Source of the DNA: Sorghum bicolor
Taxonomy: Eukaryota > Streptophyta > Magnoliopsida > Poales > Poaceae
Reading direction: 5' to 3'
Length of the DNA: 64,000 nucleotides
Assembly (NCBI RefSeq): GCF_000003195.3
Contig: NC_012879.2
Coordinates: forward strand, 26,686,949 to 26,750,948
The position numbers and the translations under genes are program-made. Each line of letters opens with the position of its first letter. Positions within the stretch are counted from its first letter, which is position 1. The notes below the pieces were generated by a model. It was not told the origin of the DNA. It did no database searches and worked only from the letters and a program-made list of their open reading frames with translations. This document shows, piece after piece, positions 8,161 through 46,661 of this stretch.

Positions 8161-11100
8161 TGTAACAAAACAGTCAAATTTATAAGAATTCAAGTGAATT
8201 AGCGACCACGGAGGCAGTCAAGCCAATGGACTTGAACCCATATAAACCCGGTAGTCCGACGAAATCTCAAAAGACCTCGATTCAACCAACATACAACCAA
8301 GATCGTACATGATCAAGCATCACCATCACAGATTACAACATTCATCACAGAACATAGTTTTACATCACATCAGAGTTTAAAGTGGTTATTACAAACCAAA
8401 GCAGTAGCGGAAACAAAGTAGTTTTGAAACAACAACAACTCAGTTTATAATACATGCCAGTTCCATGGTCAAGTCCCAACAAAAGCACAACTGAAGATAA
8501 AGGAGGTGATCACGCCCATGATCTATTCGTCATCCGCAGCCGGGTGATGACACTTAGCACAGTAGCCGTGGTAAACGACATCATCTGCAACAGGGTAAAT
8601 AAAACCCTGAGTACGAGAATGTACTCAGCTAGACTTACCCGTCATAAACCAGAAATAAAGTGACACCAAGGAGTATGCAAGGCTGATCTTTGAGGACTGG
8701 TTTGACTCACCTTTTGCATAAAAGCCTTTGTTGTAAGTAATTCATGTATCATAATTCAGCAGCAAGTTCATTACTTAGCGACTATCCACTAGATTAGCAC
8801 CTGCTCTAAGCATACACTTGAGGCTTTAAGCATTACAATAATAACCATATCCGGATTATCACATAGCTATCAACATTCTCATTATAACATTAAGTTTATT
8901 TAGTGAATTCTACGTTGCCGCTGCCCAAGTCAAGTTCTCACTATCCGGGAGAGACGGCGATTCGAATCGATTCCTATCTAGCTGGAGGGGTATTCCTAAC
9001 ACTCACCCAAGCATACTTTATGACGGCAGCTCGGATCACCTTTAGCACAACTCCGGACAAATTCGCGGGTCCGTACGGCGCCGCACCCCCAGGGACCGCC
9101 AATCTGCCAGGGTCAGGACTCTAACCTGACACCTCGGTCTTACGCCATTGACTCCCCGCACATCCTTACTACCAACCGGGGTGCGCACTTTAACTAGATC
9201 CGGGTATCCGGCCGGAGTTGCACTCGTAGGCTTCGCGGTCGGAACGACTTATCCGGCCAACTAAGTGATAGGCATGCGTTCAACATGACACGGGGACGTA
9301 CAGCGATTCGGTCCTTAAACGACAAGGACGGGGATAGGTTCACACCCAAGACCTCCATGCCTGGTTGCTGCACTATCATCGTCCCGCCCGGTCTCAAGTT
9401 TATTATTACCACTTAATGCAACAATATATAACCATAGTCATTTGATAGCTGAATATGATAATAAAATAGTAGGAGGCTTATAATGCTCCGGGGCTTGTCT
9501 TCAACGTAAGTAGAGGGACGATGGTCCGGGCACTCCGGCAAGTCCTCCTCCTCCTCAGCTCCTTGAGGTAGCTCCCCTTGCTGTCCTTCCGGCTCCGGCA
9601 GCTCGAACTCCAGCACCGTTACTCCCTTGGGTACACCTATGTATGCATGACAAGGAGATGAATATAGAGAATGCTCATATGATGCATGATGTCATGACGA
9701 GGATCCAAATGGACATAAACAAGGTATAACATGAGCATAACCCTTAAGATTAAGTGAAACATGGGCTAACGAGTAAGTGCGTACTTCTTCTCTGGTAGAG
9801 AGACTAAATAGACAAGTTAAACAATTTCTAGCTACTCCTACTCAGCCACTGGTTTAGTAGGCAAACCAACCAGTCAAAAGTTTCAGCCATAACTCAAGCA
9901 TCTTTTAACCAAACTAAGCAAGCAAGTACTTTCTGGAAAGCTTAGCAAATTGTCTACAATTCACTTTTAGACATCCCAGACTGATTCCCAACTTAAATAT
10001 GCTAAAACCTATAAAGTTGGCTGGCTGCTCTGGAAATTCCAGAGAGCAAGCACTTTGCGGCAGCTACTTGCAACATGCACAACTTTCAAACTACTCCACC
10101 AAATGTCATGAAATTTGGACACGAAGTAGATCAGTAAGTTAGCTACAAGTTTGTTGTAGACAAGTTTCCCAGAAAACATCATCTTCAATTAGTTCTTAAT
10201 CATTTGCTATCAGCTGTACAGAAATACTCTAGGAAAGGCAAAAATAGCTAAAATAATATTTTACACATATTGAGAATGTATCAAAACAACAATTCAATTG
10301 CACCAGTAGGTAGAACATATCTAAGAAACACCGGAAAACATCATGGCAAGGTCTAAAACCAATTCTATCCTCACCTTTTTCATTTATTTAATTATTAAGG
10401 TGTTTTAATGAACATGCATTCCAATTGTTCCAAAAATCCTAAGAAAATTACAGCAAGCTCCTTATGCTGACATAAGATCACTGTAAAAGTTTTAGAACAT
10501 CTGCACATACATATTGTGAGATACAAAAATAACAAGCTAGCAAAGGCATGCAAGGCATAAATGTGAAACCTCATCAAAAAGTGTCAAACAACAGATTTCA
10601 GATTTTTCCTAGCTTTGTCTACACATAAGTACAACACTCAGCAAGTTTCATCACAAAAGGAGCTATAAATAATTTATTAAAAATATCACAAGAATCTCCT
10701 ATTTAAGCAAGAACTATTTTTAACTCCTCACCCAGGCTTCCAAAAATCATGATAAATTTACCAGAGCCTATCCATATCATAAGTAACAGTACCCTAAATT
10801 TTCATGGACAGCAAATCAATAGATTTTAAGATATAATTACCCATTAAAAATCGAAGATTAATTCATATCTATTTATTTATGCAAAAACATGGCATGTTTC
10901 ATATTTTTATTAAAAACTAGACTTATGCTGGAACCTAGCAAAATTGGAACCATGTCATTGGGATCTCTAAAACTCTAGATATGAATTTTACAAAAACAGC
11001 ATTGGCTCTGAAAAAACAGTGACCAGAGGGGTGAGAGAGGAGAGGCTGACACCCGTGACCCGCGCGTCAGTGAGACAGAGCAGAGGAGATGCTCGTCGCC

Positions 11101-12470
11101 AGCGAAGCTCAACGACGACAAGGTCTCGGCCAGATCCAAGGGCATCTACGTGTTCCTCTCATCAAGGCGACTCGGTTGACCTACTTTACCCACGCTCTAC
11201 TGGACTCTAGGGTGCTCGCCGTCGGGAATGGCGGAGCGGCGGCGCTGCGCGGCGGTACGCCGGCGGATCCAGGCAATGGCGACGCTGTAGAGGTTGCGGA
11301 CGAGCAAGAACAGTTCAAGGCGAAGCTATAGGAAGAAGAATCACGGCCAGAGGTGAACCAGAGAGGTCTGGCCACGTTGCCGGTGATCTCTGTGAACTCC
11401 GGCGAGGTGAAGCTCGCGACGGAGATGACAATGTGACCTCACCGGTGCTCGGCTAAGGGAATGGAGTGGACGTCGAGGTAGAGGACGTCGAGGCGGAGCT
11501 CTGAGCGGACTGGCTTGGCCGGAGACGCGGTGAAACGGACGGAAGAGCTCGCCGAAACGCGACGGAGCTCCCTGAGGCGACGGCGCAGCGGAATGGGAGG
11601 CACTGAGCGAGTGGAGAGCGCGTCGGAGGCGTCCACTCGGTGGGTGGCATCTTGTGGACGACGTCGGGGCTGACAGGCGGGGTCGTCGACGGCGTATGGC
11701 TGGCACCTAGCCGGACACGCGGCGGCGGATGGTTTCTGACGAAACTGAATCGCGTGATTCAGTCGTCGCCAACAGTGACTAAAACTCAAACTTCGTCAAC
11801 GTTGTACTCTCAGCTCAATCGATGGTTTTGGCTGGGATTTGATCCTCTGGATAGAGCTATAGGAGCTCTACAACTTTGATTATAGGATCAGAGCCTAACT
11901 CGGTCTGGATTTCAAACTACAAGGCTCCCAATCACCCTTGGTCGAAACTGCGTGATCCAACACTTAGCCAAATTCGGCTAAGTATGAAATCAGCCCTGAT
12001 TTTTGGCTTGTTAGCAATTTTTGGATGTGTTCTATGCTTTTTCATAAAAAGTCATCAACATAACTTTTGTAGCTTGTGCAATTCTCTAAAACTTTGTTTC
12101 AGGTGTCAAAGACATGCAAGGTCTCTAACACCAGTTTCATAAAACATCTTTGAAAAGAGGTCTAGGGGGTCAAAAAGGTCATTCTAGGGTTAACCATGAC
12201 TTAGGGGCATTTTTGGCCAAAACCTTCAACATGAACTTTGTTCCAAATGATATTCTAAACATGATTGAGGTATTTTGGAAGATAATGTACAATTGTTTGC
12301 ATTGGCTACCCCTTATAGTCACTCAATTCAAGTCACACAAGCAATTCAATCATACATGGTATACATAAGATGACATGTGATCATGATAGATGCTTATGAA
12401 TGAGCATGATGATGCTTATGTTAATGCAATGCTCATGGTTAACATGCAAGCTAACACTAGGAGTGTTACA
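8161..12470 (-). mobile_element. Element 1 3' LTR (4310 bp)
   Basis: On the minus strand it runs from TGTAACACTCCTAGTG (12470) to CTGTTTTGTTACA (8161). It is closely similar to 19116-23620 but lacks about 195 bp present there at roughly 20360-20560. A GC-rich domain spans about 11020-11760 and gives open frames on both strands; these overlap each other and are not convincing genes. Confidence 0.92.
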
Positions 12471-19115: not shown

Positions 19116-22100
19116 TGTAACAGAACCGTCCAATTTATAAGAATTCAAGTGAATTAGCGACCACGGAGGCAGTCAAGCCAATGGACTTGAACCCATATAA
19201 ACCCGGTAGTCCGACGAAATCTCAAAAGACCTCGATTCAAACAACATACAACCAAGATCGTACATGATCAAGCATCACCATCACAGATTACAACATTCAT
19301 CACAGAACATAGTTTTACATCACATCAGAGTTTAAAGTGGTTATTACAAACCATAGCAGTAGCGGAAACAAAGTAGTTTTGAAACAACAACAACTCAGTT
19401 TATAATACATGCCAGTTCCATGGTCAAGTCCCAACAAAAGCACAACTGAAGATAAAGGAGGTGATCACGCCCATGATCTATTCATCATCCACAGCCGGGT
19501 GATGACACTTAGCACAGTAGCCGTGGTAAACGACATCATCTGCAACAGGGTAAATAAAACACTGAGTACGAGAATGTACTCAGCTAGACTTACCCGTCAT
19601 AAACCAGAAATAAAGTGACACCAAGGAGTATGCAAGGCTGATCTTTGTGGACTGGTTTGACTCACCTTTTGCATAAAAGCCTTTGTTGTAAGTAATTCAT
19701 GTATCATAATTCAGCAGCAAGTTCATTACTTAGCGACTATCCACTAGATTAGCACCTGCTCTAAGCATACACTTGAGTCTTTAAGCATTACAATAATAAC
19801 CATATCCGGATTATCACATAGCTATCAACATTCTCATCATAACCATTAAGTTTATTTAGTGAATTCTACGTTGCCGCTGCCCAAGTCAAGTTCCCACTAT
19901 CCGGGAGAGACAGCGATTCGAATCGATTCCTATCCAGTTGGAGGGGTATTCCTAACACTCACCCAAGCATACTTCATGACGGCAGCTCGTATCACCTTTA
20001 GCACAACTCCGGACCAATTCGCGGGTCTGTACGGCGCCGCACCCCCAGGGACCGCCAATCTGCCAGGGTCAGGACTCTAACCTGACACCTTGGTCTTACG
20101 CCATTGACTCCCCGCACATCCTTACTACCAACCGGGGTGCGCACTTTAATCAGATCAGGGTATCCGGCCAGAGTTGCACTCGTAGGCTTCGCGGTCGGAA
20201 CGACTTATCCGGCCAACTAAGTGGTAGGCATGCGTTGAACATGACACGGGGACGTACAGCGATTCGGTCCTTAAACGACACAGACGGGGATAGGTTCACA
20301 CCCAAGACCTCCATGCCTTGTTGCTGCACTATCATCGTCCCGCCCGGTCTCAAGTTCATTATTAGCACAAGGTTATTTCCACGATAGCAAATATAGCCAA
20401 CCGTGATCATCATCCACCTAATTCTCGCAGGTGACAGGAAATCACCTGGCTTCTACCGAACTAAGAATGGCTAAGCATTTCTTCGATCCTGGACCTACTT
20501 TGGTAATGTTTAAGGTGGACAAGGTAGTCATTATGCAGCAAGGGTGTCATATCAACGCCTACCACTTAATGCAACAATATATAACCATAGTCATTTGATA
20601 GCTGAATATGATAATGAAATAGTAGGAGGCTTATAATGCTCCGGGGCTTGCCTTCAACATAAGTAGAGGGACGATGGTCCGGGCACTCCGGCAAGTCCTC
20701 CTCCTCAGCTCCTTGAGGTAGCTCCCCATGCTGTCCTTCCGGCTCCGGCAGCTCGAACTCCAGCACCGTTACTCCCTTGGGTACACCTATGTATGCATGA
20801 CAAGGAGATGAATATAGAGAATGCTCATATGATGCATGATGTCATGACGAGGATCCAAATGGACATAAACAAGGTATAACATGAGCATAACCCTTAAGAT
20901 TAAGTGAAACATGGGCTAACGAGTAAGTGCATACTTCTTCTCTGGTAGAGAGACTAAATAGACAAGTTAAACAATTTCTAGCTACTCCTACTCAGCCACT
21001 GGTTTAGTAGGCAAACCAACCAGTCACAAGTTTCAGCCATAACTCAAGCATCTTTTAACCAAACTAAGCAAGCAAGTACTTTCTGGAAAGCTTAGCAAAT
21101 TTTCTACAATTAAATTTTAGACATCCCAGACTGATTCCCAACTTAAATATGCTAAAACCTATAAAGTTGGCTGGCTGCTCTGGAAATTCCAGAGAGCAAG
21201 CACTTTGCAGCAGCTACTTGCAACATGCACAACTTTCAAACTACTCAACCAAATGTCATGAAATTTGGACACGAAGTAGATCAGTAAGTTAGCTACAAGT
21301 TTGTTGTAGACAAGTTTCCCAGAAAACATCATCTTCAATTAGTTCTTAATCATTTGCTATCAGCTGTACAGAAATGCTCTAGGAAAGGCAAAAATAGCTA
21401 AAATAATATTTTACACATATTGAGAATGTATCAAAAGAAAAATTCAATTGCACCAGTAGGTAGAACATATCTAAGAAATACCGGAAAACATCATGGCAAG
21501 GTCTAAAACCATTTCTATCCTCACCTTTTTCATTTATTTAATTATTAAGGTGTTTTAATGAACATGCATTCCAAGTGTTCCAAAAATCCTATGAAAATTG
21601 CAGCAAGCTCCTTATGCTGACATAAGATCACTGTAAAATTTTTAGAACATCTGCACATACATATTATGAGATACAAAAATAACAAGCTAGCAAAGGCATG
21701 CAAGGCATAAATATGAAATCTCATCAAAAAGTGTCAAACAACAGATTTCAGATTTTTCCTAGCTTTGTCTACACATAAGTACAACACTCAGCAAGTTTCA
21801 TCACAAAAGGAGCTATAACTTATTTATTAAAAATATCACAAGAATCTCCTATTTAAGCAAGAACTATTTTTAACTCCTCACCCAGGCTTCCAAAAATCAT
21901 AATACATTTACCAGATCCTAATCATATCATAAGTAACAGTACCCTAAATTTTCATGGCCAGCAGATCAATAGATTTTAAGATATAATTACCCATTAAAAA
22001 TTCAAGATTAATTCATATCTATTTATTTCTGCAAAAACATGGCATGTTTCATATTTTTATTAAAAACTAGACTTATGCTGGAACCTAGCAAAATTGGAAC

Positions 22101-23620
22101 CATGTCATTTTGATCTCTAAAACTCCAGATATGAATTTTACAAAAACAGCATTGGCTCTGCAAAAACAGTGACCAGAGGGGTGAGAGAGGAGAGGCTGAC
22201 ACCCGGGACCCGCGCGTCAGTGAGACAGAGCAGAGGAGATGCTTGTCGCTGGCGAAGCTCAACGACGACGAGGTCTCGGCCGGATCCAAGGGCATCTACG
22301 TGTTCCTCTCATCAAGGCGACTCGGTTGACCTACTTTACCCGCGCTCTACTGGACTCTAGGGTGCTCGCCGTCGGGAATGGCGGAGCGGCGGCGCTGCGT
22401 GGCGGTACGCCGGCGGATCCAGGCAATGGCGACGCGGTAGAGGTTGCGGACGAGCAAGAGCAGTTAAAGGCGAAACTATAGGAAGAAGAATCACGGCCAG
22501 AGGTGAACCAGAGAGGTCTGGCCACGTTGCCGGTGATCTGTGTGAACTCCGGCGAGGTGAAGCTCGCGACGGAGATGACAATGTGACCTCACCGGTGCTC
22601 GGCTAAGGGAATGGAGTGGACGTCGAGTTAGAGGACGTCGAGGCGAAGCTCTGAGCGGACTGGCTTGGCCGGAGACGTGGTGAAACGGCCGGAAGAGCTC
22701 GCCGAAACGCGGCGGAGCTCCCTGAGGCGACGGCGGAGCGGAATGGGAGGCACTGAGCGAGTGGAGAGCGCGTCTGAGGCGTCCACTCGGTGCGTGGCAT
22801 CTTGTGGACGATGTCGGGGCTGACAGGCGGGGTCGTCGACGGCGTACGGCCGACACCTGGCCAGACACGCGGCGGCGGATGGTTTCTGACGAAACTGAAT
22901 CGCGTGATTCAGTCGTCGCCAACAGTGACTGAAACTCAAACTTCGTCAACGTTTTACTCTCAGCTCAATCGATGGTTTTGGCTGGGATTTGATCCTCTGT
23001 ATAGAGCTATAGGAGCTCTACAACTTTGATTACAGGATTAGAGCCTAACTCGGTCTTGATTTCAAACTACAAGGCTCCCAATCACCCTTGGTCAAAACTG
23101 CGTGATCCAACACTTAGCCAAATTCGGCTAAGTATGAAATCAGCCCTGATTTTTGGCTTGTGAGCAATTTTTGGATGTGTTCTACGCTTTTTCATAAAAA
23201 GTCATCAACATAACTTTTGTAGCTTGTAAAATTCTCTACAACTTTGTTTCAGGTGTCAAAGACATGCAAGGTCTCTAACACCAGTTTCATAAAACATCTT
23301 TGAAAAGAGGTCTAGGGGGTCAAAAAGGTCATTCTAGGGTTAACCATGACTTAGGGGCATTTTTGGCCAAAACCTTCAACATGAACTTTGTTCCAAATGA
23401 TATTCCAAACATGATTGAGGTATTTTGGAAGACAATGTACAATTGTTTGCATTGGCTACCCCTTATAGTCACTCAATTCAAGTCACACAAGCAATTCAAT
23501 CATACATGGTATACATAAGATGACATGTGATCATGATAGATGCTTATGAATGAGCATGATGATGCTTATGTTAATGCAATGCTCATGGTTAACATGCAAG
23601 CTAACACTAGGAGTGTTACA
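19116..23620 (-). mobile_element. Element 1 5' LTR (4505 bp)
   Basis: On the minus strand it runs from TGTAACACTCCTAGTG (23620) to GACGGTTCTGTTACA (19116). It is nearly collinear with 8161-12470 apart from the extra ~195 bp near 20360-20560. The GC-rich part (about 22170-22900) has open frames on both strands that I reject as genes. Transcription of the element should start within it and run toward lower coordinates. Confidence 0.92.
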
Positions 23621-32121: not shown

Positions 32122-35100
32122 TGTAACAGAACCGACCAAATTATAAGAGATTAAGCCTAACAGTGACCATTTGCATAGTCAAACCACCACGCTTAAGCCC
32201 ATATAATCCCGGTAGTCCGTGAAATCTCGAAGGATTTCAAACCACATATCGCACAACAGCCAAGATCGTAATAAGTTTAGCGGTCGCCATTCACAAATAC
32301 ATCCAGATTACAACATTCATAAAACACATCGGAGTTCTAAGAATTATTACAAACCAAGTTCTTCAAGTAGCGGAAGCTTCATAGTTTGAAAATACAACAC
32401 ACACGCTTAGTCTGATACAGTGCTATAGTTCGGTCATTCCCACAAAAGCAAAAGAAGAGACGGAGTGACCATCGCCCTTGGTCTAGTCATCACCCATAGC
32501 TGGGTACAGACAGAGGATGCAATAACCATAGTACATTTGACCATCTGCAAAACAACATGGGAGTAGAACCCTGAGTACGAGAAGGTACTCAGCTAGACTT
32601 ACCCGTCATAAAATTAAAATAAAGACTCATCAAGGATCATGAAAGCTATATAGTGGGGTAGCTGACAACCATTTTGCAAAACCGCAGAATTTTTACTATC
32701 ATAACCTACATAAGTCTTTCTTCCTTTAATTTGCTCAAGTTGAAAGTATCATTACCTATCATCTAGGTTTGCACCTACACTATTACAAGCAAGTATAAGG
32801 ATATGATAGTACCTCATTGTGGCATTCATAAGCCATTTATCAATATAGTCCAAGTGTTCCATAGTCCTTACTACGAGGACGAAGCTCATGTCAAGTGCTC
32901 ACTATCCAGGAGCGATGGCGATTCGAATCGATTTCTAACCAGCTGGCGAGTTTATTCCCCACACAAACCACACTCACTGATCAAGAGAGCTACAGGTCAC
33001 CGTATTGCACTATCCAGGACCAATTCGCGGGTTCTACAGGCACCTCCCGTACCCGAGGACCGTTCCGGCGACCGAGGTATCCAAGGTATACCAAGGTTGC
33101 GCGCCGCGCCCTCGTCGTTCTCCTCAACCATCACTAATACAGCGCGTACATCGGGCCGATTCCCGGCCTGGATAGTGCTCAGGCTTCGCTGTCGGAATGA
33201 CTTATCCTTCCAGCTAAATGTGGGGCATGCGTTCAACATGACAAGAGGGCCGTCAACGATCGGTCCTTAATCGACGCAGGCAGGGGCACTATGGTCAACC
33301 CACCATAAGACCCTGCCCGGTCTCCAATTACATTCCACACTTGGTTATTCTTTTCCCCAAGCAACCACTGCTTAAACAAGCAGGTATCCAACTATATCTC
33401 GCAGGTGACAGGAAATCACCCGACTTCTACCGGGCTACGCAAGCTAAGCATAGACTCCGCGCCTATCTACATAGGACAAGGTAGATAAACAAGTAGGGAT
33501 AACAAGGAGTACATATGCAGCAACGGTATCACACAACTCCTATCACTTAAATGCAATATAGTAGAACAAGCATAGTATATCTTGTAAGTTAGCGAGAATA
33601 TGGAGACTTAGAATGCTCCGGGGCTTGCCTTTCTCAAACGTGCTGGGTCGGTGATCCGGACACGCCTGCAGTTCCTCTCCGGATTCCTGTGCTTCCGGAG
33701 GTTCCTGCTCCTGGATCTCCTCTGGTTCCTCGGGTCCCACCTCGTTCTCCTGCGAGCCTGTATGATGCATGTGTGCTTATGAGTGGAGTGCGAGATGCCC
33801 GAGTGGATGCTTGTATGAGAAAGTACCAAAGAAGTCATGACATGATGCATATGTAATGTACTCGGTCATGCTCATTACAAGGTAGTCAACATCATCCAAG
33901 AACAAACAATTGAATCAAACATCTATTGCATTCTCTTCTACAATTATTTTTCAAATGCAACCAGCAACCCACATGATGCTTCAAAGATACACCAAACCCA
34001 ACTTATTCTATTCAACCTATATACACAACAATTCATAATTTTCTTTATTCATTTCTAGGCCCATTAAAAATCACATGCAATTCTGTTCATCAATAAATTC
34101 CACAAAAATTACAGGAGACTACCAGTCAAGCATAGAATCTACTGTAAATTTTTCATAATTTTTGGATACTTATTGTGAGCTACAAAAATCACAAGGTTAA
34201 TTAATAAGGTAAGTATAATCACTCTACTGTGATATAAGTGTCAAACAACAGATTTCATATTTTTATAATTTGTCTAAAATCATTAGAAACACCCACAAAA
34301 TTTTCCAGATTTATTGCATGAACCATTAATTATTAAAAATCATAAACCACTGCCATGTAAGCATTTAAATTACCATAAATTCATTTATACACGAAATAAT
34401 GTATAGCAATGTTTTCCCAGTGAGTAAACATACATGCAGAGCCAACAAATCAAGTTTCACATTTTTCTGAACCATATTTTATTTACTATGCATTTTGCAA
34501 GTTTAGCAAAAACATGGATTAAATATATTCATACAGAAAAGTTACTCAAACATGACATGCAATCACATCAAGCTGTAGATCTAGAAATATAGAGCACACC
34601 AAAATTTATTTCATCAAATTTGGAGCTGTAGAACTCAAGATATGAATTTTACAAGTTTTGAATCAATTTCTAGAAAACATTTATTCAAGAAAACCGACGA
34701 AAAAGGCTAAGTACACCCAGATCTACACCCACCGCGGTCCCCCTGCGACTGACAGTGGGCCACTGACCCCACCAGTCAGCGAGACCGAGAGGGAGCTCAC
34801 CTCCGACGAGCAGATCTCGCCGGCGGTGAGGTTCCCGACCACGGGGTGAGCACCTTCGTGCTCCCCGCAGCGAGGCGCACCCAGCGGTACCCTCGGATTG
34901 GCCGGAGGATGACCGGAACACCTCCGACGAGCATGCATGGCGGCACGGCGGCGCTGCTCGCCGTGGCCAGGCCGCTCTGGTGCGTTAGAGCGCGCGCAAG
35001 AGCTCCTCCGAGCTTCCCCACCGAGCTACGGACCTAACGCGCTAAAGAGCGAGCGAAACTAGGCGGGATATCGCAAGATCCGTCACGGCGGAGTACTCCG

Positions 35101-36044
35101 GCGAGCTCGGGGTAACTCCGGCGAGCGATTCACGGCGCACGGTTGCTTCTCACCTCGGTAGAGCGCGCGCAGGGGCTTACCGTGGCGACGGCGAGTGCGC
35201 TGGTGCTCTTGGCGTCGAGGTTGGGGGTCTGTTGCGACCGGCGGCGAGCGGCGGAGCTTTCTCCGGCAATGGCGCGGGCGGAGCTGCCGCTGCTGCTGCT
35301 GCGCGTGCGCGGGGAGGAAGAACAGAGAGGGGGAGGCAGGCGACAGAATGGAGGGAGCGGTCTGGGGGCGCGGGGTGGCGTCCCGACCAGGGGGGTGGGG
35401 TGGCCGGCCGCGGCGCGTCCAACGCCGGCGTACGGCCGCCACGTGGCCGGCGCCGGGTGGAGCGGGGCGGCGCCGCGCACGCGGGAGAGAGGGGAGGGGG
35501 AGCGGGCCGCGCTGCCCAGCTGGGCCGTAAGGGAGACGGGTCGGCCCAGCAGCGCCTGTCCCCTTTCTCTTTTTTTTGAAAATCTTTTCTCAAATTCTTT
35601 CTAAATTCATTTGGACCAATTTAAAATCATTTTCACCTCTTGCTCCCAAAAACAAAGTTGTTCCAAAAGAAAAACCCTACAACTTTGTTTTAATAAGAAA
35701 GACCAAATTCCCAATAGAATTTGAATTAAAAATTAAAACTAGTTCTAGGTTTTTAAATAAATTCATTTTGGTCATTTTGTATAAATTCCATTTCTCAAAT
35801 TCTATAGCTCCAAAAATTGCACAAAAATATTCTTAATTCTTCTTACACATAAATCCACCTAGTTTGAATATTTCACATTTTTATAAGCAAGCATCATATT
35901 TTTAACATACTTAGAACACATGAAATAAAGCACATAAAATCATGTTTTGGGATGAATGACATGCTCATGATGCTATGCTTGATGAGAATGCTTATGCATT
36001 GCTTTGATAACGCTAAGTGCAAGCTTAACACCTAGGGTGTTACA
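32122..36044 (-). mobile_element. Element 2 3' LTR (3923 bp)
   Basis: On the minus strand it runs from TGTAACACCCTAGGTG (36044) to GGTCGGTTCTGTTACA (32122). A GC-rich domain (about 34700-35560) is open in several frames on both strands, an effect of base composition; I call no gene there. AT-rich arms flank it. Confidence 0.92.
35438..35447. promoter_or_regulatory. G-box palindrome in element 2 3' LTR
   Basis: GCCACGTGGC contains the CACGTG core bound by plant bZIP/bHLH factors and lies in the GC-rich LTR domain. The other LTR keeps CACGTG at 46050-46055. Confidence 0.45.
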
Positions 36045-36058
36045 GCCCTTCCCCCCTT
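36045..36058 (-). promoter_or_regulatory. Element 2 polypurine tract
   Basis: AAGGGGGGAAGGGC on the minus strand, immediately before the 3' LTR. The pol stop codon TAA overlaps its upstream edge. Confidence 0.85.
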
Positions 36059-39000
36059 AGGGAAATCTCGTCCCGAGATTTTGGGTTACTAACCATTTCT
36101 TATGAAATTTTGGATAAACTGTTTTCAAGTAGTCCTCTGTTTCCCAGGTGGCATCCCTATCGTCATGATGACTCCACACCACCTTATATGTTCTGACAAT
36201 TTTGTTTCGGGTTACCCGTTCCTTGGTATCCACAATTCCCACTGGTTGCTCCTTATACTCCAAATCTGCTTTTATTTTGATCTCTCGAGGTTCAATTCTT
36301 TGCTCAGGTACCTTCAAACATTTCCGTAGTTGCGACACATGGAAGACCGGAAAGATCGAGCTCAACTCTTCAGGTAGCTGAATCTTGTAGGCCACGGGGC
36401 CTTTACTCTCTAGTATTTGAAACGGTCCCACATATCTGGGTGCAAGCTTGCTTCGAACTCGAAAACGCTGAACCTTCTTCATTGGCGTAACCTTGAGGTA
36501 CACATAGTCACCTACTTTGAATTCAAGTGGCCTTCTTCTCTTATCAGCATAACTCTTTTGTCGTGATTGCACTGCTTGCATATGCTGCTGTATGATTTGC
36601 ACCTTCTTCTCGGCCTCATTCACGAAGTCGATACCATAGTATCTTCTCTCACCAGGTTCAACCCAGTTTAACTGAGTTCTACACCTCCGACCATACAAAG
36701 CTTCGAACGGGGCCATCTTAATGCTCTCTTGATAACTGTTATGGTAGGAGAATTTAGCCAGAGGTAACCATGATTCCCATGATCCCTTGGACGATAGCAC
36801 ACAGGCCCTCAGCATATCTTCTAACACTTCATTTAGCCTCTCCGTTTGGCCTGAAGTCTGGGGATGATACGCCGTGCTTCTTATCAGACTGGTCCCCAAA
36901 CTCTTATGCATGCGCTCCCAGAAGTGAGCGGTGAACTGTGGTCCTCTATCTGATATGATGGTCTTGGGAATACCATGCAACTTGACAATCTCGGCCATAT
37001 ATATATCGGCATACTCGGGAGGTCTGTATGTGTTCTTAACTGGAATGAAATGAGCCGACTTGGTTAATCGATCTATGATCACCCAAATCGAGTCATTCCC
37101 CTTCCTCGTGGTTGGTAAACCTGTGATAAAGTCCATACTAACCTCTTCCCATTTCCACTCTGGAACTGATAACGGTTGCAACAGACCTGCAGGTTTCATA
37201 TGGATGGCCTTAACTCTGCAACACGTGTCACAACGGGCTACATACGCAGCTATCTCTTTCTTCATCTTGGTCCACCAAAAGTGGGGTCTTAGATCTTGAT
37301 ACATTTTGCTACTGCCAGGATGAATGGAAAGCTTAGAGAGATGGGCTTCATCCATGATGCGATTCTTCAATTCCCGATCCTTCGGGACTACTAACCGATG
37401 TTGAAACCATAGTACCCCTTTCTCATCAACTCGAAACTGAGTTTTTGGCTCATCTTTGATCTTCTCCTTGATGTGGAAAATACCCTTGTCTGTTTTCTGT
37501 CCTTCAATGACTTAACTCTCGAGTGAACAACTGAGTTGTATGTGACATAAGACCTCTGGATGCATGAGATTGAACCCATCTTCAAACAACGGTTGAACCA
37601 CTTGATAGTGCGGCTTACGACTCAATGCATCTGCTACTACATTAGCCTTGCCTGGATGATAGTGAACCTCCAAATCATAGTCCTTGATTAACTCTAACCA
37701 CCTTCATTGCCTCATATTCAGCTCGGACTGAGTGAAGATGTACTTCAAGCTCTTATGGTCGGTGAAAACGTGACACTTATTCCCCAGCAGATAGTGTCTC
37801 CAAATCTTCAAAGCGTGCACTACTGCTGCTAACTCGAGGTCGTGAGTTGGGTAGTTGACATCGTGCTTTCTCAACTGTCGTGAAGCATAAGCTATCACTC
37901 GGCCGTCTTGCATCAACACACACCCCAAGCCACTCTTCGACGCGTCGCAAAACACATCAAAAGGCTTTTTGATGTTAGGTTGCGCCAGAACGGGGGTAGT
38001 GCTTAGCAACTTTCGCAAGGTGCGGAAGGCTAACTCACACCCTTCCGTCCAGACAAACTTATAATCCTTTTGTAGCAAACTTGTCATTGGCTTAGCAATC
38101 TTGGAGAAGTCAGGTATGAAACGACGATAATACCCGGCCAGACCAAGAAAACTTCTAACTTCCGAGACAGAAGTTGGTGCCTTCCAGTCCATGACTTCCT
38201 GCACTTTTGACGGATCCACAACAATCCCTTCTTCAGACATAATGTGCCCTTGGAAAGGAACTTTCTTCAACCAGAACTCACACTTGCTGAACTTGGCATA
38301 TAACTGATGCTCTCGTAATCGTGTCAGCACGATTCTCAGATGCTCGGCGTGATCTTGCTCATTTTCTGAATAAACCAGGATATCATCGATAAACACCACA
38401 ACAAACTTATCCAATTCTGGCATAAAGACTGAATTCATCAGATACATAAAGTATGCAGGAGCATTTGTCAATCCAAAGGACATGACAAGGTACTCATACA
38501 ACCCATATCTGGTGGAAAAAGCAGTCCTCGGGATATCTTGTGGACGAATCTTGATTTGGTGATACCCAGATCTCAAATCTATCTAAGAAAACACTCTTGC
38601 CTTGGACAACTGATCAAACAGGATATCAAACCTTGGCAATGGATACTTATTCTTGATTGTCACTGCATTGAGTGGACGATAGTCCACGCACATGCGCAGC
38701 GATTGATCCTTCTTTTTCACAAACAATGCGGGACAACCCCATTCCGACGAGCTTGGTCGGATGAACCCTTTATCCAGTAACTCTTTTTGTTGATTCTTCA
38801 ACTCAGCGAGTTCGTTTGGTGGCATCCGGTACGGCCTTCTAGATATTGGTGCTGTACCCGGTATCAACTCGATTGCAAACTCTACTTCCCTATCTGGGGG
38901 AAGTCCTGGTAAATCCTCGGGAAAAATGTCAGGGAACTCACACACCACGGGTATGTGCTCTAGGGGAACCACCTGTACTGCACACAAAAGACTGGCGAAG

Positions 39001-40528
39001 TCCAACCGCCTGGGTAGCTTGACCTGAAGCACACCCTTCCCTTGCGGGTCTCTAAGGGAAAGAGTTCTATTCCCGGCATCTATAACCGCACCCTAGTCAG
39101 ACATCTTGTTCATTCCAATGATGACATCCAAAACTAGCCCTGGCATGACCACAAGATTTACGCGAAACCTCCGGCCACTGATATCCAAAGTAACTCCTGT
39201 TACTGTTTTATTAGTCAACACATCGGCTCCGGCTGAGCTGATGCGATAGCCATAACCTAACTCAGTAACTGGCTGGTCATGCTTTTGTGCAAATGCTTGG
39301 CTCATGAATGAATGCGATGATCCAGAATCAAACAAAACAACTGCGAGATGTTGGTTGACAGGAAACATACCAGCTGTTACCGGTTCTCCTTCCGGGATCT
39401 CCTCGATCGAGGTATGGTGCACACGAGCTGGATAGGTTGGCTACTGCCTCTTGGGGTAGGGACATTCCTTAGCAAAGTGCCCCATCTTGTGGCAGTTATA
39501 GCACGGACCCTTGGGCGCATTGTTGACGGCAGGTGCTGCAGCTTGAACTGCCTTTGGCTTGGCAGGGGCTATCGCCACCTTGTACGGCTTCTGCTGTGTT
39601 GGATGCCCGGTGTTCCTTCTCTGCGGCGGTCGGAACCTAGCACCTGGGGCAGGAGGACGATACTGCTGTCGCCCTGCCACTGGTGCCCTGGACTGAGATG
39701 ATCCGGCTTCAAAAGCCCTCTTACGTGACTTGGATGCACTGTAGTTGTTGTTGTTGTTCTCCTGGGTGAGACAGTCACTGATGTAAGCATTGAAGATAGC
39801 CCTGGCCCTGTACCCATGGTCTTCAGCATCTTTGGACTCAAGCCTCTCTGGAAACTAGCAATCTTTTTAGCCTCCGTGTTCACAAACTCCGGGGCATAGC
39901 GAGCGAGATTGTTGAAAGCGTGTAGATACTCCTTCACCGATTTCGTCCCCTAGGACAGCCTCATGAACTCCCCAACCTTCATTTCAACCACACCTGGAGG
40001 AATATAATTTCCTCGGAAAGCAGTGGTGAAGAGGTTCCAGGTGATTGGGGTCCCCTCTGGGTAGGTGGTACGGTGATGGGACCACCAAATCCCAGCGGGT
40101 CCTTGCAACTGATGTGCCGCATACTCAGCCTTAAGTTCTTCTGTCATTCGGAGAAGACGAAACTTCTGCTCCATAGTGTTGATCCACTCATCTGCCTCGA
40201 GCAGTTCCAAAGCCTCTTTGAAGATTGGTGGCTTGGTATCCATGAAGTCCTTGAACGAACTGTACTGATTGACTTCACGGCCACCCTGATTATCCCCACG
40301 ACGGGTGTTATCAGCTATGTTGCGCAGAGCCTATTCCATGTTGCGTTGCATCTGTTCCATGTTGCGTTGGCTCCCCAGAAACTGCACGAAAAACACGTCC
40401 ACAGTGTACGGAGGAGGCGGTGGTGGTGGCGGTGTTGGTGCTCTGTCCTCATTCCGTTGAGCCCCACCTCCAGACGTACCTGCTCCAAGGCCCGGATTGC
40501 TGTTACCCCCGCCACGTGTTTGCACCAT
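36057..40528 (-). pseudogene. Element 2 gag-pol polyprotein, broken
   Basis: gag starts at 40528 (MVQTRGGGNSNPGLG) after a GTAG. In order: gag domain ([27 protein letters not shown]), CCHC knuckle CYNCHKMGHFAKEC (about 39.48 kb), protease FDSGSSHSF (about 39.33 kb), reverse transcriptase with FIDD, RNase H ([10 protein letters not shown]), integrase and chromodomain-like tail. The integrase-to-end frame (36057-37370) is uninterrupted: [17 protein letters not shown] and QTERLNEVLEDML hold the HHCC and DDE residues, and IVDTKERVTRNKIVRTYKVV with DATWETEDYL is the chromodomain-like part. Lesions: stops at 40331, 39950, 39441, 39093, 38583, 37704 and about 37513, plus a frameshift near 39810. Most stops are one transition from CAG, CGA or CAA. 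Confidence 0.92.
36063..36081. repeat. Palindrome adjoining element 2 polypurine tract
   Basis: AAATCTCG-TCC-CGAGATTT, identical to the element 1 palindrome. It encodes the NLGTRFP end of pol. Confidence 0.8.
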
Positions 40529-40848: not shown

Positions 40849-41892
40849 CTAGTCACTATGATCACTGTCCATGCCGGAGCCATCCTCATCCTCATCTCCA
40901 CTAGAAGCTGCTCCTATCGCGGGATCCGCATCCATCTCGTCCTCAGAGTCTAGCTCAGCTGCTCCAGGCAGGTGGTGAGGGTGGAGCTGGTTATGCAGCT
41001 GGTGGATCTCCTCATGCAAGTTCTCATTGTACTCCTCGGCATTAGCTAGCTGCTGCTCTAGCTCTAGCTGTCGGGCCCTCAAAGTGTCCTCCTCGTGCCA
41101 GGCTTCATTCCTCTGACCAAGCACATGGACTAGCATGCGCTCGCAGTTCCTGTGAGCAGTAGTCACCCTGTCCTTCTGCTCCCGCACTGCAAGCAGGTCC
41201 TGACTCAGCTCACTGTTCTTCTGGACTGCCTGATCCCTCTCTGTAGTCACCCGGGGCAACTCTGCCTGTAGCCTCTCAACCTCAGAGTCAAACTCACGCT
41301 GCAACTGACGCTTCTCATCCTGGACGGTGAGAAGAGACCTGGATAAGCGGCCCAAACAATGCTCCAGACCCCCATAGGTCTTCATCAACGCGTACATGGC
41401 ACTCATAGCTGCACTGTCACTGTGCTGGTCCTCATCCGCACTCCTCTCTAGAGCATTCACCTCGGACTGATCCCACACCGAAGTGTAGGGGTCACCCTGG
41501 GGAAACACCCCAGCGAAGACGTGGGCCAGCTCCTGTGGAAACCTCTCCATGAGGTCCCTCAGAACTACGAAAGCTGCCCTGCTGGCACCGTGGAAAGGCG
41601 TGACACCTCGAGACTCGTACACCCAGCCGCCCCAAGCAGGGTCACCTCCACTGGTAGGAACCACTGCCTCAATCCCCACCAGTGTCTCGTCACCAAGCGG
41701 CTCCTTATCCCAATAGTAGCGAGGCTCCCTTCCTTCGGGATACCCCATCGAACTGAGTACCCTCCAAAGCAAAGTGGGCATCCCAAACTGCTCCAGGAAC
41801 CTGCTCTTATGTCGCGAGCTCCTAGTTGCCAACGGGTGGCGAGGGGCCCGCCCACCAGTGGACTTGCGAGCGGTGAGTCTAGTGCGTGCCAT
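40849..41892 (-). CDS. Element 2 ORF0: histone H3-tail-like head, conserved core, coiled coil, acidic tail (347 aa)
   Basis: The first ATG (41892), right after GCAGCAG, starts MARTRLTARKSTGGRAPR. After Met removal, 18 of the first 26 residues match canonical histone H3. Lys9 and Ser10 are kept; the positions of K4, K14 and K23 are Arg, and those of K18 and K27 are His. Residues ~36-130 form a core (FGMPTLLWRVLSSMGY, WGGWVYESRGVTPFHGA) shared with ORF0 of elements 1 and 3. Residues ~180-300 are heptad-rich coiled coil, and the end is acidic (SGDEDEDGSG). There is no histone fold, so it is not a histone gene. It lies between leader and gag, on the sense strand. The frame is fully open although gag-pol of the same element has at least seven stops. 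Function unknown: an H3K9 mimic, or a chromatin-binding or chaperone-like accessory, are hypotheses. Confidence 0.85.
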   Translation of the reverse strand: MARTRLTARKSTGGRAPRHPLATRSSRHKSRFLEQFGMPTLLWRVLSSMGYPEGREPRYYWDKEPLGDETLVGIEAVVPTSGGDPAWGGWVYESRGVTPFHGASRAAFVVLRDLMERFPQELAHVFAGVFPQGDPYTSVWDQSEVNALERSADEDQHSDSAAMSAMYALMKTYGGLEHCLGRLSRSLLTVQDEKRQLQREFDSEVERLQAELPRVTTERDQAVQKNSELSQDLLAVREQKDRVTTAHRNCERMLVHVLGQRNEAWHEEDTLRARQLELEQQLANAEEYNENLHEEIHQLHNQLHPHHLPGAAELDSEDEMDADPAIGAASSGDEDEDGSGMDSDHSD

Positions 41893-42133
41893 CTGCTGCA
41901 AATGGAATACCGTGGGTAAGAGCGAGGATTACCTTTAATTATTTTATTTAGAATTGGGACAGATTAAATTGAGGGGGAAAGTAAGCAATGATATGACATG
42001 AACATGATGCATGCACGAACTTACGATCTCACAAACTTAGAAACAAAGGTTAACACTATGCGGTATATGCGGTGGCACACAACGTTCTCTCATAACGTAA
42101 CTAGCGTTCTAAGCGAGAACGTGGTTAGTGTAC

Positions 42134-42405
42134 CTGCAGAAAACTCATTTCAGCCCACCCACAGTATGCTAATGCAAAACAAAATTTAAAACTATGCACT
42201 CCACATACACTGACACCCGTCCATGCATGTGATGTGTTGCTACCCATATCATCGCCCTAATGACGGCATCGCCTCTCAGGACGGAATTCCCAACATGCGG
42301 TACGGTTTCCAAGACACACCAAAACATGTGTGCTTGACACAGTACCTAACAACACTCCCCTAGACCGGCAGTGTATCCGATCATGCTCTCACAGCTCCCA
42401 CTTAC
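42134..42405 (-). other. Candidate leader intron in element 2
   Basis: Donor G|GTAAGTG at 42405 and acceptor TTTTCTGCAG|G ending at 42134, on the minus strand, match the element 1 pair in sequence and order (272 bp here, 298 bp there). CTGAAAT precedes the acceptor in both. Inference; cDNA is needed. Confidence 0.4.
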
Positions 42406-42698
42406 CATGGCGTAGAGGAAAAATGGATCCATACATTACCACTCAAATGAATGGTACTCATACTATTGCACGCCGTATGAGCGACGAAATAAAAATATAA
42501 TGCATTAACCCCCAAGTCAGTACTTAGCTAGCCACCTTAGAATCCTTAACTGGGCATAACGGATATGACCATGGCACATTAGATAGTTTTCCAAAACTTA
42601 GTTTAACACTTTGATTATTATTAATTAATAAAATCTTTTATTAAACCGGTTTAGATTTTGTTTAGAACGTACTTATGAACAGTAACGCGCTAAACCTT

Positions 42699-42710
42699 GC
42701 TCCGATGCCA
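42699..42710 (-). promoter_or_regulatory. Element 2 primer-binding site (tRNA-iMet type)
   Basis: TGGCATCGGAGC on the minus strand, two bases after the 5' LTR; two mismatches from TGGTATCAGAGC. Confidence 0.75.
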
Positions 42711-42712
42711 GC

Positions 42713-45700
42713 TGTAACAGAACCGACCAAATTATAAGAGATTAAGCCTAACAGTAACCATTTGCATAGTCAAACCATCACGCTTAAGCCCATATAATCC
42801 CGGTAGTCCATGAAATCTCGAAGGATTTCAAACCACATATCGCACAACAGCCAAGATCGTAATAAGTTTAGCGGTCGCCATTCACAAATACATCCAGATT
42901 ACAACATTCATAAAACACATCGGAGTTCGAAGAATTATTACAAACCAAGTTCTTCAAGTAGCGGAAGCTTCATAGTTCGAAAATACAACACACACGCTTA
43001 GTCTGATACAGTGCCATAGTTCGGTCATTCCCACAAAAGCAAAAGAGGAGACGGAGTGACCATCGCCCTTGGTCTAGTCATCATCCATAGCTGGGTACAG
43101 ACAGAGGATGCAATAACCATAGTACATTTGACCATCTGCAAAACAACATGGGAGTAGAACCCTGAGTACGAGAAGGTACTCAGCTAGACTTACCCGTCAT
43201 AAAATTAAAATAAAGACTCATCAAGGATCATGAAAGCTATATAGTGGGGTAGGTGACAACCATTTTGCAAAACCGCAGAATTTTACTATCATAACCTACA
43301 TAAGTCTTTCTTCCTTTAATTTGCTCAAGTTGAAAGTATCATTACCTATCATCTAGGTTTGCACCTGCACTATTACAAGCAAGTATAAGGATATGATAGT
43401 ACCTCATTGTGGCATTCATAAGCCATTTATCAATATAGTCCAAGTGTTCCATAGTCCTTACTACGAGGACGAAGCTCATGTCAAGTGCTCACTATCCAGG
43501 AGCGATGGCGATTCGAATCGATTTCTAACCAGCTGGCGAGTTTATTCCCCACACAAACCACACTCACTGATCAAGTGAGCTACAGGTCACTGTATTGCAC
43601 TATCCAGGACCAATTCGTGGGTTCGATAGGCACCGCCCGTACCCGAGGACCGTTCCGGCGACCGAGGTATCCAAGGTATACCAAGGTTGCGCGCCGCGCC
43701 CTCGTCGTTCTCCTCAACCATCACCAATACAGCGCGTACATCGGGCCGATTCCCGGCCCGGATAGTGCTCAGGCTTCGCGGTCGGAACGACTTATCCTTC
43801 CAGCTAAATGTGGGACATGCGTTCAACATGACATGAGGGCCGTCAACGATTGGTCCTTAATCGATGCAGGCAGGGGCACTATGGTCAAGCCACCATAAGA
43901 CCCTGCCCGGTCTCCAATTACATTCCACACTTGGTTATTCTTTTCCCCAAGCAACCACTGCTTAAACAAGCAGGTATCCACCTATATCTCGCAGGTGACA
44001 GGAAATCACCCGACTTCTACCGAGCTACGCAAGCTAAGCATAGACTCCGCGCCTATCTACATAGGACAAGGTAGATAAACAAGTAGGGATGACAAGGAGT
44101 ACATATGCAGCAACGGTATCACACAACTCCTATCACTTAAATGCAATATAGTAGAACAAGCATAGTATATCTTGTAAGTTAGCGAGAATAGGGAGACTTA
44201 GAATGCTCAGGGGCTTGCCTTTCTCAAACGTGCTGGGTCGGTGATCCGGACACTCTTGCAGTTCCTCTCCGGATTCCTGTGCTTCCGGAGGTTCCTGCTC
44301 CTGGATCTCCTCTGGTTCCTCGGGTCCCACCTCGTTCTCCTGCGAGCCTGTATGATGCATGTGTGCTTATGAGTGGAGTACGAGATGCCCGAGTGGATGC
44401 TTGTATGAGAAAGTACCAAAGAAGTCATGACATGATGCATATGTAATGTACTCGGTCATGCTCATTACAAGGTAGTCAACATCATCCAAGAACAAACAAT
44501 TAAATCAAACATCTATTGCATTCTCTTCTACAATTATTTTTCAAATGCAACCAGCAACCCACATGATGCTTCAAAGATACACCAAAGCCAACTTATTCTA
44601 TTCAACCTATATACACAGCAATTACAGGAGACTACCAGTCATGCATAGAATCTACTGTAAATTTCTAGGCCCATTAAAAATCACATGCAATTCTGTTCAT
44701 CAATAAATTCCACAAAAATTACAGGAGACTACCAGTCAAGCATAGAATCTACTGTAAATTTTTCATAATTTTTGGATACTTATTGTGAGCTACAAAGATC
44801 ACAAGGTTAATTAATAAGGTAAGTATAATCACTCTACTGTGATATAAGTGTCAAACAACAGATTTCATATTTTTATAATTTGTCTAATATCATAAGAAAC
44901 ACCCACAAAATTTTCCAGATTTATTGCATGATCCAATTAATTATTAAAAATCATAAACCACTGCCATGCAAGCATTTAAATTACCATAAATTCATTTATA
45001 CACCAAATAATGTATAGCAATATTTTCCCAGTGAGTAAACATATATGCAGAGCCAACAAATCAAGTTTCACATTTTTCTGAACCATATTTTATTTACTAT
45101 GCATTTTCCAAGTTTAGCAAAAACATGGATTAAATATATTCAAACAGAAAATTTACTTAAACATGACATGCAATCACATCAAGCTGTAGATCTGGAAATA
45201 TAGAGCACACCAAAATTTATGTCATCAAATTTGGAGCTGTAGAACTCAAGATATGAATTTTACAAGTTTTGAATCAATTTCTGGAAAATATTTATTCAAG
45301 AAAACCGACGAAAAAGACTAAGTACACCGAGATCTACACCCACCGGGGTCCCCCTGCGACTGACAGTGGGCCACTAACCCCACCAGTCAGCGAGACCGAG
45401 AGGGTGCTCACCTCCGACGAGCAGATCTCGCCGGCGGTGAGGTTCCCGACCACGGGGTGAGCACCATCGTGCTCCCCGCAGCGAGGCGCACCCAGCGGTA
45501 CCCTCGGATTGGCCGGAGGATGACCGGAACACCTCCAACGAGCATGCATGGCGGCACGGCGGCGCTGCTCGCCGTGGCCAGGCCGCTCTGGTGCGTTAGA
45601 GCGCGCGCAAAAGCTCCTCCGAGCTTCCCCATCGAGCTACGGACCTAACGCGCTAAAGAGCGAGCGAAACTAGGCGGGATATCGCAAGATCCGTCGCGGC

Positions 45701-46656
45701 GGAGTACTCCGGCGAGCTCGGGGTAACTCCGACGAGCGATTCACGGCGCACGGTTGCTTCTCACCTCGGTAGAGTGCGCGCAGGGGCTTACCGCGGCGAC
45801 GGTGAGTGCGCTGGTGCTCTTGGCGTCGGGGTTGGCGCTCTGTTGCGACCGGCGGCGAGCGGCGGAGCTTTCTCCGGCAATGGCGCGGGCGGAGCTGCCG
45901 CTACTGCTGCTGCGCGTGCGCGGGGAGGAAGAAGAGAGAGGGGGAGGCAGGCGACAGAATGGAGGGAGGGGTCTGGGGGCGCGGGGCGGCGTCCCGACCA
46001 GGGTGTGGGGTGGCTGGCCGCGGCGCGTCCAACGCCGGCTTACGGCTGCCACGTGGCCGGCGCCGGGTGGAGCGGGGCGGGCGCCACGCGCGCGGGAGAG
46101 AGGGGAGGGGGAGCGGGCCGCGCTGCCCAGCTGGGCCGAAAGGGAGACGGGTCGGCCCAGCAGCGCCTGTCCCCTTTCTCTTTTTTTTTGAAAATCTTTT
46201 CTCAAATTCTTTCTAAATTCATTTGGACCAATTTAAAATCATTTTCACCTCTTGCTCCCAAAAACAAAATTGTTCCAAAACAAAAACCCTACAACTTTGT
46301 TTTAATAATCAAGACCAAATTCCCAATAGAATTTGAATTACAAAATAAAACTAGTTCTAGGTTTTTAAATAAATTTATTTTGGTCATTTTGTATAAATTC
46401 CATTTCTCAAATTCTATAGCTCCAAAAATTGCACAAAAATATTCTTAATTCTGCTTACACATAAATCCACCTAGTTTGAATATTTCACATTTTTAGAAGC
46501 AAGCATCATATTTTTAACATATTTAGAACACATGAAATAAAGCACATAAAATCATGTTTTGGGATGAATGACATGCTCATGATGCTATGCTTGATGAGAA
46601 TGCTTATGCATTGCTTTGATAAGGCTAAGTGCAAGCTTAACACCTAGGGTGTTACA
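42713..46656 (-). mobile_element. Element 2 5' LTR (3944 bp)
   Basis: Collinear with 32122-36044. It differs by a short templated insertion near 44622-44665 and scattered substitutions. The GC-rich domain (about 45310-46190) is again open in both strands without a credible gene. Confidence 0.92.
44622..44665. repeat. Templated insertion copied from about 100 bp downstream
   Basis: ATTACAGGAGACTACCAGTC followed by ATGCATAGAATCTACTGTAA replaces the CATAATTTTCTTTATTC found at the same place in the other LTR. The inserted words recur just downstream at about 44719-44760. Confidence 0.8.
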
Positions 46657-46661
46657 GGCTT
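46657..46661. repeat. Target-site duplication of element 2 (right), GGCTT
   Basis: Matches 32117-32121 exactly. Confidence 0.93.

Follow-up and report, generated by a model that had tools for sequence, protein, structure and literature searches.

A histone H3-like N-terminus on the ORF0 protein of a sorghum LTR retrotransposon: a possible decoy for H3K9 silencing

Why would a plant retrotransposon encode a protein that opens like histone H3? The question is raised by a stretch of 64,000 nucleotides from Sorghum bicolor (NC_012879.2, positions 26,686,949 to 26,750,948; hereafter the window), in which a long terminal repeat (LTR) retrotransposon carries an extra open reading frame (ORF0) on the minus strand, at 40849..41892. 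The frame has 347 codons, is intact in this copy and encodes a protein with the first residues MARTRLTARKSTGGRAPRHPLATRSSRHKS. Frame, coordinates, length and first residues agreed, on re-reading of the sequence, with a preliminary description, according to which a plant retrotransposon makes a non-histone protein with an H3-like N-terminus; the H3 match and the element context support that proposal, and we infer that the likeness may be mimicry in the functional sense.

The head of the protein (residues 1-29; 41806..41892, minus strand), aligned without gaps to the H3 tail after Met, N-terminus on N-terminus, has 15 of 20, 17 of 23, 18 of 26 and 18 of 28 identical residues, the third of these counts being the one already given in the preliminary description. 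When the 28 residues of the head were shuffled 1,000,000 times, the mean was 3.35 and the maximum 13 identities to H3, and the next-best 28-residue window in all six frames of the 64 kb reached nine; chance was rejected on these grounds as the source of the likeness. A phmmer comparison of the whole 347-residue protein, in no way primed for H3, with 177,635 distinct PDB sequences ranked H3 tails first (E 1.9e-4), as did the one for P0032, a member of a family of shorter relatives (E 3.2e-4). There is very little doubt that the H3 resemblance of the head and its spread are real. The phmmer match stops at residue 29-30, no match to the histone fold (PF00125) was obtained in the Pfam search, and residues 38-125, where there is no histone fold, were modelled as helix-strands-helix. 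CENH3 is probably not the source of the head and was rejected as such, the TARKSTGG..APR..LA stretch being that of canonical H3. Lysine 9 of H3 (K9; residue 10 counting Met) is the sole Lys in residues 1-28; its TARKS context is kept, and K14, K18, K23 and K27 are replaced by Arg or His. A lysine in ARKS context is present in an accessible place, the head being disordered in the structure model (predicted local distance difference test, pLDDT, ~29).

ORF0 lies between the 5′ LTR (42713..46657, 3945 bp) and gag, on the same strand, in a frame separate from gag-pol. The 3′ LTR spans 32122..36045 (3924 bp), likewise on the minus strand, and the two LTRs, both >3 kb, are 97.0% identical over 3947 alignment columns. 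The gag-pol region (36057..40528, minus strand) is interrupted by stops and shifts of frame, whereas ORF0 of the same copy is intact. Its pol fragments matched Pfam RVT_1, RT_RNaseH, Integrase_H2C2 and SH3_Tf2-1 above the Pfam cut-offs, and rve and Chromo below them, the latter weakly (E 0.0017). An extra frame between a 5′ LTR of >3 kb and gag is also found in the grass Ty3/gypsy elements Retrosat2, RIRE3, RIRE8 and Sorsat2, whose ORF0, known from grasses including sorghum (Gao et al. 2012, PMC3485330), is described as fast evolving and without established function, with homologs named in sorghum, maize and Brachypodium. Retrosat2 is placed under Tekay in a table of PMC6317226. By position and LTR size, the frame fits ORF0 of a Retrosat2/RIRE3/RIRE8-like, Tekay-type LTR retrotransposon. 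Genome-wide, at least 117 near-full-length ORF0 matches (94-100% identity) were scored among 3292 first-look candidates, giving a family of at least that many near-full-length copies, and perhaps of thousands.

A first sample of copies (60 loci, 41 distinct sequences) was chosen by protein likeness and is biased in that respect; the head was in frame in all 41. To avoid this bias, a second sample was drawn by way of the noncoding stretch that separates ORF0 from gag, and 40 of 796 candidate places were scored, one of them the window copy. The head was in frame in 35 of the 39 others, and all 35 start with ATG-Ala and have K9; 33 are free of stops over 30 codons, and 34 have 16-17 identities to H3 over 28 residues, the last one having 14. 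Of the four copies in which no head was found, one was truncated by the end of the retrieved sequence and three were headless at the expected place. Related copies with the head missing or out of frame had been named in the preliminary description as counter-evidence to its claim; most flank-sampled copies keep the head in frame.

The head recurs in public protein catalogues, in P0012 (50% identical overall to ORF0) and in the short family, full-length members of which (~180-210 residues) keep head, coiled coil and acidic tail and are without the core. It was seen in 38 of 146 proteins (query included), always right after Met; the other 108 were mostly called from inner Met codons on short contigs and count neither way. 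Over the 38 heads, the H3 residue is present at A1 in 37, R2 in 29, K4 in 36, T6 in 36, A7 in 37, R8 in 30, K9 and S10 in 37 each, and G13 in 38, with Arg in place of K4 in P0001 and P0012. The H3 lysines up to K23 other than K4 and K9 have been lost, K14 being replaced by Arg in 38 of 38 and K18 by His in 37 of 38, with Lys never found at position 23. Since R14 and H18 are common to the heads but not H3-like, the head is of one origin across the three lineages. Many R-to-C/H changes among the heads resemble the decay of methylated CpG. Members of the short family (P0025-P0037, P0039, P0041 and further members) keep K4 and K9, and their frequent R-to-C/H changes look like methylated-CpG decay in dead copies. 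Among 150 matches scored in the sorghum genome, the short family as such was not found. The head of one sorghum relative, which has undergone an inner deletion, is GGQAPRHQLAPRSS, with the Q19 of H3; at locus L100 (G000:C4:27028470-27029040), an in-frame inner deletion removed the beginning of the coil and most of the dsRBD-like core described below, leaving a layout close to that of the short family. Used alone as a query, residues 1-90 retrieved only three close relatives, and none was confirmed in the viral contigs and prokaryote genome contigs searched.

Conservation between families was compared in five pairs, over 24 columns for the head: P0001/P0012 (head 19/24, core 51/88, coil 59/137, tail 10/30), P0001/P0032 (head 19/24, coil 64/102, tail 12/34), P0012/P0032 (head 16/24, coil 41/95, tail 16/30), P0001/P0037 (head 15/24, coil 60/102, tail 10/34) and P0012/P0037 (head 17/24, coil 40/95, tail 13/30). 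The head was the best-conserved part in all five, by a narrow margin in P0001/P0037 (63% against 59%).

Between the 5′ LTR and ORF0 lies a leader of 820 nucleotides (41893..42712, minus strand), which begins GCTGGCATCGGAGC, resembling a tRNA-Met primer-binding site. It contains 22 ATGs, and plain scanning from the LTR would therefore hardly reach the start of ORF0. Directly 5′ of the ORF0 ATG is a stretch resembling a 3′ splice site (ATTCCATTTGCAGCAG; 41893..41908, minus strand; putative), and this exact 16-mer precedes the ATG in 51 of 60 loci. The junction reads TTTGCAGCAG then ATG in the window family and CTTTCTACAG then ATG in a diverged second element of the window, where a pyrimidine-rich stretch and CAG again adjoin the ATG; many members of the short family have a peptide MILPL..NFLLQ before Met, compatible with a pyrimidine-rich stretch followed by CAG. 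We infer splicing at this site, which would make the head N-terminal; transcripts that start or splice otherwise had been named in the preliminary description as counter-evidence. The leaders of the two diverged elements also share TTCTGCAGGTACACTAAC (42150-42120 and 18440-18410, both minus strand), in which an acceptor-like site directly adjoins a donor-like one, an arrangement known from recursive splicing.

Residues 38-125 (41518..41781, minus strand) are predicted to form helix-strand-strand-strand-helix, a fold like that of a double-stranded RNA-binding domain (dsRBD). The top fold matches of the model were the dsRBDs of DRB7.2, Staufen and DCL4, with ribosome-hibernation factors ranked below them. 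The plant DRB7.2 and DCL4 domains (PDB 8igd, 8z49, 9k9p) resemble the core in predicted fold but are only 14-16% identical to it, and ORF0 has no dsrm profile match: dsrm was absent from the Pfam matches at E <= 1 and was not among the 25 families shown for 14 ORF0 relatives. A search of PDB sequences with a profile of the core gave seven matches and no dsRBD. KKxAK-type RNA-binding lysines sit at helix 2 of dsRBDs; they were not found there in ORF0 (TPFHGASRAA) or P0012 (TPKEGAGKAA), and RNA binding of the core is therefore not claimed. The core had at first been called unrelated, which holds with respect to histones but missed the predicted dsRBD fold. The coiled coil and acidic tail of that description were recovered: residues 160-303 (40984..41415, minus strand) are predicted as one long helix (with pLDDT of 89-98 beyond about residue 181 and lower values ahead of it), and residues 304-347 (40852..40983, minus strand) have 15 D/E and no K/R. 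Membership in a known protein family was rejected, Pfam having given weak coiled-coil matches only.

What might such a protein do? A loop of dimethylated H3K9 (H3K9me2), non-CG DNA methylation and small RNAs keeps plant transposons silent, and SHH1 is an H3K9me2 reader. In plants, SUVH4/5/6 are the H3K9me2 writers and CMT3 a reader, in a loop that silences transposable elements, and ADCP1 contacts R2, K4 and K9me2 of H3 (PMC6318295). The head keeps Ala1, R2, K or R at position 4, and K9, much of what H3K9 writers and readers use, and has dropped the other H3 lysines. We consider it probable that some function uses its H3 likeness, and give a probability of about 0.4 to the reading that ORF0 acts on the H3K9me2/small-RNA loop as a lure or decoy. 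In this reading, splicing at the acceptor-like site would make the adjoining ATG the first on the spliced RNA, and loss of the initiator Met, which Met-Ala proteins are expected to undergo, would expose Ala1, as in H3. The coiled coil would form oligomers displaying many heads, so as to be multivalent; the free head would be methylated at K9 by SUVH4/5/6-type enzymes, bound by H3K9me2 readers (candidates are CMT3-type methylases, ADCP1 and SHH1), or both, and the dsRBD-like part would bind element RNA or a DCL/DRB protein. The combined effect at the element would be to titrate the H3K9me2/RNA-directed silencing loop or to lead it astray. More tentatively, a grass retrotransposon lineage may have captured an H3 N-terminus and fused it to a coiled-coil protein with a dsRBD fold, yielding an H3K9 decoy that joins both arms of plant transposon silencing, H3K9me2 reading and small-RNA production, in a single protein of counter-defence. 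We count in favour of a decoy the H3 likeness far above chance, the retention of K9 and S10 in 37 of 38 heads and of K9 in 35 of 35 flank-sampled ones, the lead of the head in all five family pairs, a predicted dsRBD fold for which DRB7.2, Staufen and DCL4 were the best matches, and a ratio of nonsynonymous to synonymous differences (pN/pS) of 0.08-0.27 outside the head.

Two sets of observations weigh against a decoy. Firstly, the head does not look specially protected within the family. In pairwise comparisons of 16 of the 39 flank-sampled copies, pN/pS was 0.41 for the head, against 0.08 (residues 30-37), 0.20 (core), 0.26 (126-159), 0.23 (coil) and 0.27 (tail); exclusion of CpG codons gave 0.70 against 0.06, 0.22, 0.47, 0.23 and 0.24, respectively. 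The pN values were alike (0.028 head, 0.025 core, 0.033 coil), pS being lower in the head, and the 31 distinct heads of the flank sample gave a pN/pS of 0.48. A first estimate of 0.19 for the head, from 41 distinct ORF0s, was discarded as biased, the copies having been picked by protein similarity. The 35 heads contain 23 distinct amino-acid-changing, seven synonymous and one stop change, and the amino-acid-changing share (77%; 71% is expected when mutation is modelled simply, with a chosen weight for CpG; P 0.81) reveals no shortage; most head changes are mutations that followed insertion. Because of the higher pN/pS in flank-sampled copies and the absence of such a shortage, purifying selection on the head is not claimed from within-family data. 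Eight of the 16 ORF0s have a stop and one more a 26-base gap. The head has 9.2 CpG per 100 bases (41806-41892), against 3.6 in the remaining ORF0, and a synonymous diversity among copies that is roughly one half of the value in core, coil and tail and similar to that of residues 126-159, perhaps because its source was rich in CpG or because splicing, for instance, adds a constraint.

Secondly, both other ORF0 relatives within the window are without the H3 head, which is thus not general for ORF0. One belongs to the second element, of like build (repeat pair at ~8161-12470 and 19116-23620), and is diverged, with one stop and a recognisable core, coil and acidic tail (18185-17259, minus strand); the other is decayed (48893-47851, minus strand) and starts MDMPASPLPSDTFLSKFGTPTLLWRVL. 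Their starts compare as MAAPHASETFLDMFG (18185) and MDMPASPLPSDTFLSKFG (48893). In a tree of the core, the two stand apart from 12 others with 93/95 support, just under the firm-support mark of the tool, the decayed relative covering 39% of the columns. The head may therefore be a gain of one clade or have been lost in another.

The likeness might otherwise be a relic of the capture of a host H3 gene, with the head a basic tag for nuclear import or nucleic-acid binding and nothing special about K9. H3 tails bind importins, residues 1-29 have nine K/R and no D/E, and several lysines are now Arg or His; such a tag seems rather unlikely, however, in that the uncharged H3 residues A1, T6, A7, S10 and G13 are kept in 36-38 of 38 heads and R2 and R8 less often (29 and 30), with the head always directly after Met. 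Tethering, which we consider unlikely, would have the methylated head read by heterochromatin proteins and bring the particle or integration complex to H3K9me2 chromatin, replacing in trans the type II chromodomain of the element, which lacks aromatic-cage residues. Seed-plant chromovirus chromodomains are without the cage and the partner of the type II chromodomains is unknown (PMC6317226), the chromodomain of the window copy is the weak Pfam match given above, and the relative FRetro3 turned centromeric in Oryza brachyantha (PMC3485330); against this, ORF0 is a separate frame with no sign of a link to Gag or integrase, and Retrosat2 and its homologs are dispersed with no concentration in specific regions (PMC3485330). 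A captured H3 N-terminal exon, perhaps with its splice acceptor, persisting as a passenger with no role of its own in a family that amplified recently would fit the neutral look of within-family head changes and the headless relatives, but is improbable given 15-19 of 24 head identities between families where the coil has 42-63%, and a head kept in three diverged lineages.

A decoy would have partial parallels. H3-like stretches in non-histone proteins occur at the C-terminus of influenza NS1 (PMC12937675) and at the automethylation sites of G9a/GLP, where the lysine is methylated and bound by HP1 (PMC9768651); those motifs are C-terminal or internal, whereas the ORF0 head comprises ~25 residues at the N-terminus of a retrotransposon protein, with Ala after Met. 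The VANC proteins of VANDAL transposons (PMC5735166, PMC10398659) counter epigenetic silencing, as proposed here for ORF0, but are sequence-specific anti-silencing factors of Arabidopsis elements and are likened to ORF0 in role. The extra frames of Ty3/gypsy elements have been sorted into 314 groups (PMC6317226), and enzyme functions were assigned to published ORF0 from three-dimensional models, the word "histone" having no occurrence in the main text of that paper (PMC3485330) or of a review from 2026 on how plant transposons capture genes (PMC13317346). Judged by titles and the starts of abstracts, no H3-like retrotransposon protein was seen in the open PMC literature, which does not prove novelty, and no retrotransposon dsRBD or silencing suppressor surfaced there, PMC6338049 covering other domains. 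ORF0 itself is already known; its H3 head and dsRBD-like core were not seen described in that literature, and their combination is not proven new. If the decoy reading is true, a transposon protein in a very abundant family would wear the very end of H3 that is read by the silencing loop and would be, to our knowledge, the first transposon-encoded H3 mimic; the old question of the role of ORF0 would become directly testable, and the finding may be relevant to what type II chromodomains have as their partner.
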